A stretch of 64,000 bases of DNA. It comes from Candidatus Sumerlaeota bacterium. Its GTDB lineage: Bacteria > Sumerlaeota > Sumerlaeia > Sumerlaeales > Sumerlaeaceae. Made by a program: the position numbers and the translations under genes. Location: positions 186,001 to 250,000 of the forward strand of contig JAAZBM010000011.1 in NCBI GenBank assembly GCA_012513815.1. The letters run 5' to 3'. Below the pieces are notes generated by a model that saw only the letters and a program-made list of their open reading frames with translations, was not told where the DNA came from and did no database searches. Positions within the stretch are counted from its first letter, which is position 1. Every line of letters starts with the position of its first letter. Positions 7,321 through 20,957 of the stretch are shown here, piece after piece.

Positions 7321-7351
7321 TTGTCGAATAGAAAACAACTTCCCGTATAAT
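7321..7351 (+). promoter_or_regulatory. Candidate dinB promoter
   Basis: A perfect TATAAT (7346-7351) lies 37 nt before the TTG start. TTGTCG (7321-7326) is the best -35 match but its 19-nt spacer is long. The LexA-like box lies just downstream, where it would block the polymerase. Confidence 0.45.
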
Positions 7352-7368: not shown

Positions 7369-7384
7369 TAGAACATTTGTTTTA
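7369..7384 (+). promoter_or_regulatory. LexA-like operator (SOS box) before dinB
   Basis: TAGAAC-ATTT-GTTTTA matches the GAAC-N4-GTTC LexA/DinR consensus with one mismatch. It ends 3 nt before the dinB start and shares its flanks (TAGAAC) with the perfect box upstream of recA. The position, between the -10 element and the start, is suitable for repression. Confidence 0.6.
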
Positions 7385-7387
7385 ATT

Positions 7388-8578
7388 TTGAAACGGGATA
7401 TTCTACATATAGACATGGACGCATTTTACGCGTCAGTAGAGCAACGGGATTTTCCTGAGCTTCGCGGCAAACCGATTGTTGTGACCGGGAGCAAAGACAA
7501 GCGCCACGGAGTTGTCTGCGCCGCATCCTATGAGGCCCGCGCCTTTGGCATACGCGCCGGGATGCCTGCCTATCAAGTGTCGATGCTCTCCCCCGAAATC
7601 ATTCATCGACCGGGACGCTTTGATGAGTACATGAAGACGTCACGGAAGATGCACAAAATCTTTGGGACGTATACGCCTGTAATTGAGCCGGTTGGATTGG
7701 ACGAAGCGTTTCTGGATGTTACGGAGAGTAAACGACTGTTTGGCAGCGCCGAGGCCATCGGGCATAAAATCAAGCAGCGGATTCACGAGGAATTGCGTCT
7801 CAATTGCACGGTCGGCATTGCGCATAACAAGTTGCTTGCCAAACTGGGAAGCGATATGGGCAAGCCGAATGGTTTTATGATTTTCACGAAGGATTTGTTT
7901 GACCAAATGGCGCCCAAAATCAAAGCCAATAAACTTTGGGGAATTGGGCCGTCGGTGTCGGCGACGCTGGCGCTACTTGGAGTGGTCACAATCGCTGATT
8001 TGCGGAAGTGCCCGGTCAAGGTTCTGCGCGATTATCTCGGAACGCATTCCGCTTATCATTTGCAGGAGATGGCACTGGGCGAAGATTCGTCGGTGGTTAT
8101 CCCCTATACGCTGCCCAAATCGTTCGGAGCCGAGGAGACTTTTGAACAGGACATTTCGGATGAGTCGCAGTTGTTGGGTCGGCTTTACCGGTTGGTTGAC
8201 CGTGTTGCGAAAACTCTTCGTGCCCATCACATGCAAGCGCGGACAGTCCACATGAAAGCCCGCTTCTCGGACTTTATCACGGTTGGTTATTCGCAGACGC
8301 TGCCGACGCCCACCAACCAGACACTGGAATTGCGGCGTGTGGCGCAAGTGCTTTTCAGTGTGCGTTTTTCGCGCAACGGCAGACCACTGCGCTTACTCGG
8401 GATTAATCTTTCGAACTTGACGCCACCCGGGGAAATCTGCGAGGAGCTGCCTTTGTTTGGCGAGACCGACAAGAAATGGGAATTGCTTGACCATGTCATG
8501 GACCAAGCGCATGACAAATACGGCAAGAAGATTATTGGGATTTGTATGCCACCGACGCCCGCTCACAAAAAATGGTGA
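7388..8578 (+). CDS. dinB: DNA polymerase IV (Y-family translesion polymerase)
   Basis: The 396-aa protein shows all Y-family signatures: HIDMDAFYASVEQ (first metal-binding Asp), YEARAFGIRAGMP (fingers), VGLDEAFLDVT (catalytic Asp-Glu pair), NKLLAKLGSDMGKP and a helix-hairpin-helix region with LWGIGP, followed by a little-finger domain. It copies across damaged bases with low fidelity. The TTG start is chosen because it gives the canonical N-terminus; the next in-frame ATG lies inside the metal-binding motif. The C-terminus ends without an obvious QLxLF-type beta-clamp peptide that I can point to; ELPLFGE (residues about 355-361) is the best candidate. Regulation by LexA is likely from the box directly upstream. 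Confidence 0.95.
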   Translation: MKRDILHIDMDAFYASVEQRDFPELRGKPIVVTGSKDKRHGVVCAASYEARAFGIRAGMPAYQVSMLSPEIIHRPGRFDEYMKTSRKMHKIFGTYTPVIEPVGLDEAFLDVTESKRLFGSAEAIGHKIKQRIHEELRLNCTVGIAHNKLLAKLGSDMGKPNGFMIFTKDLFDQMAPKIKANKLWGIGPSVSATLALLGVVTIADLRKCPVKVLRDYLGTHSAYHLQEMALGEDSSVVIPYTLPKSFGAEETFEQDISDESQLLGRLYRLVDRVAKTLRAHHMQARTVHMKARFSDFITVGYSQTLPTPTNQTLELRRVAQVLFSVRFSRNGRPLRLLGINLSNLTPPGEICEELPLFGETDKKWELLDHVMDQAHDKYGKKIIGICMPPTPAHKKW

Positions 8579-18621: not shown

Positions 18622-19683
18622 TTATTCGGCAGCCGGAGCCGTTGGCTCCTCATCCTTCTTCTCCGAGGGCATCAGTGCCTCTTTGACTCTTGTCTCGATT
18701 TGCGCCATGATGTCCTTGTTTTCCTTCAGGAATCTTTTGGCACTCTCGCGTCCCTGACCGATACGGTCGCCATTGAACGAGAGCCATGAACCTGATTTGT
18801 CGATGACGGAATTGGCAATCGCCAAATCGATAACATCGCCTTCACGCGAGATGCCTTCGCCAAACATGACATCGAATTCAGCTTCGCGGAACGGCGGGGC
18901 AAGCTTGTTTTTGACCACTTTCACCTTGACACGGTTACCGACATTGTCCGTTCCGTCCTTGATTGCGCCGGTACGGCGAATGTCCATGCGGATGGTCGAA
19001 TAAAACTTCAATGCGCGACCACCCGTTGTCGTCTCGGGGCTACCGAACATGACGCCGATTTTTTCGCGAATCTGGTTGATGAAAATAACGGTTGTGTTGG
19101 AGGTGCTAACAATACCGGTCAGCTTACGCAGTGCCTGACTCATCAAGCGCGCCTGCAGACCCATAAAGCTGTCGCCCATTTCGCCCTCGATTTCGGCGCG
19201 TGGCACCAGTGCCGCCACAGAGTCGATTACAATCACATCAATAGCCGACGAACGAACAAGCATCTCAACGATATCGAGCGCCTGCTCCCCTGTGTCCGGC
19301 TGGCTGAGCAAAAGCTCATCTGTCTTGACACCCAACTTGTTGCAATACTGTGGGTCAAGCGCATGCTCGGCATCAATGTAGGCGGCTGTGCCACCCGCAC
19401 GCTGAGCATTGGCGACAATGTGCAATGCCAGTGTCGTTTTACCCGAAGACTCGGGACCAAAAATCTCGATGATACGGCCGCGGGGAACGCCCCACACTCC
19501 AAGAGCATAATCGAGTGACAGAGAACCTGTGGAGATAACCTGAAGACCCTCCGCAAAATTCTGATGCTCACCAAGACGCATTATGGAACCTTTGCCATAA
19601 TTGTGCTCAATCTGCTGTAATGCCAAACTTAAGTTTTTGTCTTTGGTATTCGAATTATTGACTGACATTTTTGCCATTGACAT
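18622..19683 (-). CDS. recA: Recombinase A
   Basis: The 353-aa protein contains Walker [14 protein letters not shown], the catalytic Glu in the [10 protein letters not shown] region, Walker [13 protein letters not shown]1/L2 loop sequences ([35 protein letters not shown]) and an acidic C-tail. It forms filaments on single-stranded DNA for recombination and triggers LexA self-cleavage. Either the ATG at 19683 (GGAG only 4 nt away) or the ATG at 19677 (10 nt away) may be used. A perfect LexA-type box lies 107 nt upstream, so it is probably damage-induced. rsmG follows in the same unit. Confidence 0.98.
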
Positions 19684-19789: not shown

Positions 19790-19805
19790 TAGAACTATTG
19801 TTCTA
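19790..19805 (-). promoter_or_regulatory. LexA operator (SOS box) upstream of recA
   Basis: TAGAAC-TATT-GTTCTA is a perfect 6-bp-arm palindrome and an exact match to GAAC-N4-GTTC, the LexA/DinR box of Bacillota and several other phyla. It lies 107 nt before recA and 88 nt before the divergent hisC. Control of recA is the natural reading; lexA itself is not in the window. Confidence 0.75.
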
Positions 19806-19892
19806 AACCCTGCTAAATATATTCTGCTATGAGTGACCATCTTGCTTGTAAACTACAATAATAATATATCGTATAGTAATAAGGAAATTTGT

Positions 19893-20957
19893 ATGCCTGT
19901 TTGTCCGAATAAGTATGTCAGCAGCCTAGTTGCTTATGTCCCCGGCGAGCAACCGCGAGGCAGCGGCTTCATCAAACTCAATACGAATGAGAATCCCTAT
20001 CCTCCTTCGCCCTCAGTCACAAAGGCACTGAGTGAGATTGGCAAGGACGGAATGCATCTCAATAAGTATCCGGATCCATGGGCAAATGAATTGCGCAAAA
20101 AGTACGCAGAAATAATTAATTTTTCGGACACTTCTATTATTGTGGGCAATGGTTCGGATGAGATTTTGCGCATGATTTTCGAGGCGTTTGCAACCGAGGG
20201 CGACACACTCGTGGTTGCGGACCCCACCTACGTGCTCTACGAAACGCTGGCATCGATGTTCGGGTGCAAGACAGTCCGCTATCCCCTGTCAACCGAGGAC
20301 TTCACGTTGCCGGAGGCATTCTATGGCGCTGAAGGCAAGATTCTGATTTTGCCCAACCCGAATCCGCCTTATGGCATTTGCTACGGTTTGGAGACACTCG
20401 AACGCATCGCCGCTGCCAAACCGGAGCGGCTGGTCGTCTTCGATGAAGCTTACATTGATTTCACCGAGAATCCCCGTGGCGCGCTTGATTTGGCATTGCG
20501 TTATGACAATGTGATGGTGACGCGCACCTTCTCCAAGGGATGGTCACTTGCGGGCGGGCGCATTGGCTTTGCCTGCATGAATCCGGCGCTGTTCGAGTCC
20601 ATGGCCAAGGTCAAGGATTCGTATAATGTGAACAAGATGTCGCAGGTTGCCGCCTCTGCCGCCCTCGACAGTGCAGAAGCTCAACGCGAGAACAACGGAC
20701 GCATCGTCGCGTTGCGCAGCGAGATTGCGGAGCAATTGCGTAAACGCGGATTCACGATGCCACCATCGAACGGAAACTTTGTTTTTGCGCGCGGCAACAA
20801 CGCGCCGGAACTCTACCGTCAACTCAAGGAGCACAAAGTTCTTGTCCGCTGGTTTGACACACCCTTGCTTCGCGACGGATTGCGCATCACAATCGGCACC
20901 ACCGAAGAGATGCGTGTTTTCCTTGAGAAACTTGATCTCTGTTTAGCGAGCATGTAG
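19893..20957 (+). CDS. hisC: Histidinol-phosphate aminotransferase family
   Basis: The 354-aa PLP-dependent class II aminotransferase has LNTNENPYPPSPSV at the N-terminus, VGNGSDEILRMIFEAF, PNPNPPYGICYG, VFDEAYIDF and the Schiff-base lysine in TFSKGWSLAGGRIGFA. The family transfers an amino group from glutamate to imidazole-acetol phosphate in histidine synthesis; single HisC-like enzymes outside a his operon can also act on aromatic 2-oxo acids. No other his gene is near. The ATG at 19893 follows AAGGA by 7 nt and gives the expected length. It overlaps nothing and runs into dnaG with a 3-nt gap. Confidence 0.88.
   Translation: MPVCPNKYVSSLVAYVPGEQPRGSGFIKLNTNENPYPPSPSVTKALSEIGKDGMHLNKYPDPWANELRKKYAEIINFSDTSIIVGNGSDEILRMIFEAFATEGDTLVVADPTYVLYETLASMFGCKTVRYPLSTEDFTLPEAFYGAEGKILILPNPNPPYGICYGLETLERIAAAKPERLVVFDEAYIDFTENPRGALDLALRYDNVMVTRTFSKGWSLAGGRIGFACMNPALFESMAKVKDSYNVNKMSQVAASAALDSAEAQRENNGRIVALRSEIAEQLRKRGFTMPPSNGNFVFARGNNAPELYRQLKEHKVLVRWFDTPLLRDGLRITIGTTEEMRVFLEKLDLCLASM

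Follow-up and report, generated by a model that had tools for sequence, protein, structure and literature searches.

A probable LexA operator upstream of recA in a Sumerlaeota genome, and the box shared with the lexA promoters of its family

The 16-bp palindrome at positions 19790 to 19805 of the window, the 64,000-nucleotide stretch of Candidatus Sumerlaeota DNA analysed here, very probably works as a genuine LexA operator, ordinary in form and unusual in setting. This reading, drawn from sequence comparison, follows from the rarity of the full 16-mer, from its placement before recA and before a dinB-type gene, and from the presence of this site upstream of lexA in every one of the six family relatives found to have a LexA. 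The genome from which the window comes (G000, a 66% complete assembly of 1.88 Mb) was set beside seven relatives of the same family (G001 to G007) and beside other families of the class. The features of the window on which the argument turns are as follows.

7346 to 7351, plus strand: TATAAT, possible -10 element of dinB, 17 nt before the second box, assigned by reading
7369 to 7384, no strand assigned: second proposed LexA operator, TAGAACATTTGTTTTA, 11 of 12 arm positions matched, second-ranking site of the window
7388 to 8578, plus strand: dinB-type (Y-family) translesion DNA polymerase gene (Pfam IMS 4e-50, IMS_C 2.6e-26)
18622 to 19683, minus strand: recA, the proposed controlled gene (NCBIfam TIGR02012, score 551 bits, cut-off 325)
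19790 to 19805, no strand assigned: proposed LexA operator of recA, TAGAACTATTGTTCTA, top-ranking site of the window
19816 to 19821, minus strand: TATATT, possible -10 element of recA, separated by 10 nt from the box that follows it on the recA strand, assigned by reading
19893 to 20957, plus strand: hisC, the divergent neighbour (NCBIfam TIGR01141, above cut-off)

The two 6-bp arms of the recA box form a perfect inverted repeat around a TATT spacer that is itself non-palindromic, which confirms the 16-bp box described in an earlier, sequence-only reading of this DNA; the distances of 107 and 88 nt given there measure 106 nt to the recA ATG (19683) and 87 nt to the hisC ATG (19893). The RecA encoded in the window has its best named match, at 72%, in a Candidatus Sumerlaeota genome. 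When the pattern TAGAACNNNNGTTCTA is allowed at most one mismatch, the window yields two sites where 0.08 is the mean expectation, and none of 100 shuffles contains two; with at most two mismatches there are three against 1.12, and 7 of 100 shuffles reach three. The second site, overlooked in the earlier reading, ends 3 nt before the TTG start (picked by reading) of the IMS/DinB-type gene. Scored with a matrix built from the six lexA boxes of the family, to which G000 contributed no data, the recA box reaches 22.8 bits and the dinB box 18.5, the next site of the window standing at 11.9; none of 60 simulated windows attains the recA score, and the dinB score is unmatched among their three best sites.

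The relatives place this box at the lexA gene itself. A perfect GAAC-N4-GTTC lies before lexA in six of the six family relatives with a LexA, 24 to 115 nt from a start codon chosen by script, and the simulated chance of such a site was 36 to 80 in 20000 for each promoter, with a product of 3e-16; together with the second box at dinB, this gives good support to the LexA-type operator proposed from the letters of the window. The further idea that the box is conserved upstream of recA in relatives held in part. A site matching at least 10 of 12 positions is present in the recA promoters of five of the eight family genomes (G000, G002, G003, G005 and G006), the site of G005 falling in an apparent opposing coding frame, and no site at that threshold was found in those of G001, G004 and G007; the recA distances for G004 and G006 are rough because the starts used for these two genes are internal. 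IMS-type polymerase genes have a site with no more than one mismatch ahead of them in G001, G004, G005, G006 and G007, G006 also showing a 10/12 site at a second IMS gene; no site was found before the start of the IMS gene of G003, and the G002 genome gave no IMS match. Other sites with at most one mismatch lie 34 nt before a DnaE-type gene in G003 and 19 nt before a Hel308-like helicase gene in G006, for which the helicase models score below their curated cut-offs, and some sites in relatives are found within frames or before genes without a clear SOS sense (sulfatase-like, pilin-like). Over the 27 family sites compiled, the outer positions are T in 76% and A in 87%.

In the mechanism that we infer, a LexA dimer would bind the palindrome at 19790 to 19805 and repress recA, its twin at 7369 to 7384 being predicted to act on dinB in the same manner, and damage would relieve this repression, in that RecA activated on single-stranded DNA would promote LexA self-cleavage and free both genes. 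If TATAAT at 7346 to 7351 and TATATT at 19821 to 19816 serve as -10 elements, both boxes would lie just downstream of a -10. The promoter scan returned no sigma-70-like pair adjoining the box on either the recA or the dinB strand, and both -10 elements are for that reason putative. The suggestion that the divergent hisC could also be affected finds no support, since the sole promoter-like match toward hisC, a weak one at 19833 to 19862, falls downstream of the box.

The sequence-only reading had named the lack of a lexA gene as evidence against an operator, and the lack of one is, literally, what the search of G000 returned: neither PF01726 nor a profile of the family LexAs found a LexA in this assembly, and PF00717 matched two XRE-type proteins only. 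Because a third of the genome is unassembled and a LexA is present in six of the seven family relatives (none was found in G007, which is 80% complete), the missing gene weighs little, and the species presumably carries its LexA in the unassembled third. Synteny was of no use in explaining the missing gene, because the lexA neighbourhoods of the six relatives are dissimilar, save for a nearby tRNA-Met in three.

It could be argued that another damage-sensing repressor, for instance an XRE-type S24 protein, has bound the box since the canonical LexA was lost, and G000, with no LexA found, does encode two such proteins, at C10:375696 (L249:1423-2052, HTH_3 plus Peptidase_S24) and at C14:53780 (L250:1180-1827). 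However, no box matching at least 10 of 12 positions was found at either locus (the best match, 9/12, lies within the second gene's own reading frame), and with no box before them the two proteins were rejected as its regulators; furthermore, the box matches the LexA boxes of the relatives, where its position at lexA in 6/6 is that of autoregulation, and a different repressor is on these grounds very unlikely. The protein at C14:53780 reads GTQM where its counterpart on C10 reads GDSM, so that its catalytic serine may be missing. Just as improbable is a relic operator, unbound since LexA disappeared from a small-genome lineage. Such a relic would fit the failure to find LexA in 1.88 Mb, but the assembly is incomplete, and a relic should decay, whereas the arms are intact, at 12/12 before recA and at C14:49552 and at 11/12 before dinB and at C15:35148.

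The box counted here as a LexA operator is set apart by its placement, not by any numerical excess in the genome. For the core GAACNNNNGTTC, the window has one occurrence where 1.36 would be expected by chance, and the genome-wide scan for GAAC-N4-GTTC that had been proposed as a check found no enrichment in G000 (48 sites, the reversed control giving 55); taken by itself the core carries no significance, and a core-only scan was rejected as proof of an operator. A crude ORF call places 46 of the 48 core sites within reading frames and leaves two outside, that of recA among them; the only other GAACTATTGTTC, an identical core at C10:94025, was rejected as an operator, lying within a 594-aa frame. 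For the 16-mer, the counts in G000 are five sites with up to one mismatch, where the control pattern gives seven, and 25 with up to two, where it gives 127; a genome-wide excess was accordingly rejected. The five sites stand before recA, before dinB, at a frame on C14, at a phage-type protease gene on C15 and within a frame on C10. Only those of recA and dinB are intergenic by the crude ORF call, which puts all seven control sites in frames; the sites on C14 and C15 are intergenic only by our reading of start codons and strand, a re-reading that the control sites did not receive. That the palindrome arose by chance, the intergenic DNA being AT-rich, would suit a core at chance level in window and genome and counts no higher than the controls, but is hardly credible given that the 16-mer is rare, recurs before dinB and matches the lexA boxes of the relatives. 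The C15 box lies 28 nt before the protease gene, and the C14 box, a perfect 16-bp copy, lies 22 nt before the likely ATG of a gene of unknown family (L198:934-1530), whose product has no match in Pfam or PHROGs and which is perhaps a new SOS gene.

Family LexAs align with a solved LexA across both domains. The cleavage site is kept (V-A-A-G in six rows, I-T-A-G in G022, a genome from another family of the class), as are a serine region of the G-D-S-M type (with N-S-M and E-S-M in one row each) and the lysine of T-V-K. The recognition helix is of an STNT type, R/A-STNTV-x-Y-H/Y, and aligns with RSPNAAEEHL of E. coli; it probably differs from the helix of B. subtilis LexA, SSSTVHGHL. The comparison of lexA genes took in 33 of the 34 class genomes with a PF01726 match, G036 being left out (partial, E 4.9e-4), and in it the palindrome accompanies seven of seven STNT-type LexAs (the six family members and G022) and 0 of 26 others, with a Fisher p of 2e-7 that ignores kinship. 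In the LexA tree the 26 others group as one (98/96) and G022 joins the family (88/96), its placement being unsure owing to its long branch. The LexA of G011 has an odd helix, RSAATIHQDL, and that genome carries a UmuD-like frame with a UmuC-like frame after it (L309:528-1600, C356). Near-identical LexA-like proteins are also found in different genera (L163 on C1 of G002 and L166 on C74 of G004), that of L163 beside a recombinase-like frame; these two are probably carried by a mobile element.

Outside the window family, 27 lexA promoters of the class were compared, and that of G022 is the only one with a perfect GAAC-N4-GTTC core. Palindromes in the other 26 did not rise above mononucleotide shuffles, and direct repeats were therefore tested, again with mononucleotide shuffles. 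A repeat TTYGY-N6-TTYGY, with a period of 11 bp, is present in 18 of the 26, most other spacings giving 0 to 2; counts are likewise above that level at spacings of 13, 22 and 24 (5, 6 and 8 of 26), the last two spacings fitting stacked repeats. The repeat was found in none of the six lexA promoters of the window family. Its spacing is the commonest before sister recA genes as well (8 of 28 promoters, the next at 5; G028 and G009 left out) and before sister IMS genes (6 of 22, the next at 2, in a set with loci for 30 of 45 matches, 7 of those 30 left out). The lexA promoters, 5,173 bp in all, hold 35 repeats, compared with 2 in 108,718 bp of other class DNA, both strands counted. Across six genomes the stricter TTCGCYTNNNYTTYGC matched 30 sites and its control 11. 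By our count 15 of the 30 precede repair-type genes, namely lexA (5), recN (4), ruvB (2) and, with single sites, uvrB (325 nt), an IMS gene, a Hel308-like helicase and a DEAH helicase, the uvrB and helicase genes being cut off by the stretch end and below cut-offs; the other 15 include sites in frames and sites before unrelated genes. At recN, G013 and G034 each have two tandem repeats, situated 27-28 and 68-69 nt upstream of its start. Taken together, these comparisons suggest that one class uses two operator architectures, each with its own type of LexA helix, STNT with the palindrome and a SLAT type with the direct repeat, and the class would offer a natural series on the change of LexA specificity, in which protein and operator pairs can be swapped. 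Two frames lie at some distance from such sites: a family-B DNA polymerase has a palindromic box 489 nt upstream (L223, G002 C25), and a similar-looking frame with no family match stands 859 nt behind a direct repeat (L379, G026 C53), an intervening gene being possible in both.

Passages of PMC3323433 give GAAC-N4-GTTC as the LexA box of B. subtilis and Gram-positive bacteria and GTTC-N7-GTTC as that of the Alphaproteobacteria, parts of PMC9578287 give the Gram-positive form as CGAACN4GTTCG, together with a statement on monophyly, and sections of PMC8565304 describe LexA motifs as varied and lexA duplication as often tied to motif change. The window box resembles the LexA/DinR box of B. subtilis in its palindromic core, its spacing and its place before recA and translesion polymerase genes. 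The assignment of the box to the Bacillota form stands for the core but not for the flanks, which are T-A...T-A in the window and TA...TA in its family instead of C...G, and the phylum is Sumerlaeota, not Gram-positive. In its 11-bp period and its tandem layout the sister repeat, TTCGY-N6-TTCGY, agrees with the alphaproteobacterial GTTC-N7-GTTC (from portions of PMC3323433 and PMC8565304), but its half-site is TTCGY, not GTTC, and the window family lacks it. What is new is the setting of the box; the box itself is a further case of a known operator form. The LexA motif of Verrucomicrobia is reportedly TGTTC-N4-GAACA, likewise a palindrome of GTTC-like half-sites but opposite in orientation, and in the 350 nt before the window recA the best match to GTTC-N4-GAAC is 6/8. 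The main text of a Sumerlaeota genome paper (PMC8092238) makes no mention of LexA, RecA, phage or capsid, and the literature search found no paper joining Sumerlaeota with 'SOS response'; 'Sumerlaeota' and words starting with 'lexa' co-occur in PMC12206884 and PMC8896826, and among papers with LexA, TTCGC and SOS none is, by its title, on the TTCGY-N6-TTCGY motif.

The family box is also found within a phage-type cluster of head genes, consisting of a Mu-type portal, a head maturation protease, a small head protein, a major capsid protein and, in some genomes, an adaptor. In G000 the cluster lies amid host genes.

C15:33531-38138 (L248:1531-6138): head-gene cluster of portal, protease, small head protein, major capsid and adaptor

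A box with at most one mismatch occurs within the cluster in seven of the eight family genomes, one site each; G004 has no such capsid gene. The box stands before the portal in G002 and between portal and protease in the others, falling in G005 and G007 in a crude N-terminal extension of the protease frame, and the flanks of the cluster vary from genome to genome (those of relatives are on stretches L310-L314 and L345-L364). The capsid gene was found in 34 of the 40 class genomes searched, as a single match in 29 of the 34, and all four head genes are present with their order kept in 13 of 20 sister-family stretches. A direct repeat before the sister head clusters was rejected, with none at the genes: of the two repeats in the 108,718 bp, both strands, one is inside the G020 protease and one is near a stretch end in G021. 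One palindrome match of 10/12 lies 228 nt before the portal gene of G010.

It is possible that the head cluster is domesticated and resembles a gene transfer agent. A wider reading, tentative and on balance doubtful, is that LexA swapped both operator architecture and helix within the class, by divergence or by replacement of lexA, with TTCGY-N6-TTCGY in most families and TAGAAC-N4-GTTCTA in the window family and G022, and that the SOS response of the family took over a chromosomal head cluster of phage origin, GTA-like, that damage would induce. A link between LexA and gene transfer agents is already reported in Dinoroseobacter, according to part of PMC6473078; if the head cluster works, DNA damage would trigger particle production in an uncultured phylum. 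In G001, a gene resembling the terminase large subunit (phrog_38; L240:1918-3897, C7) lies about 2 kb from lexA, apart from the head cluster.
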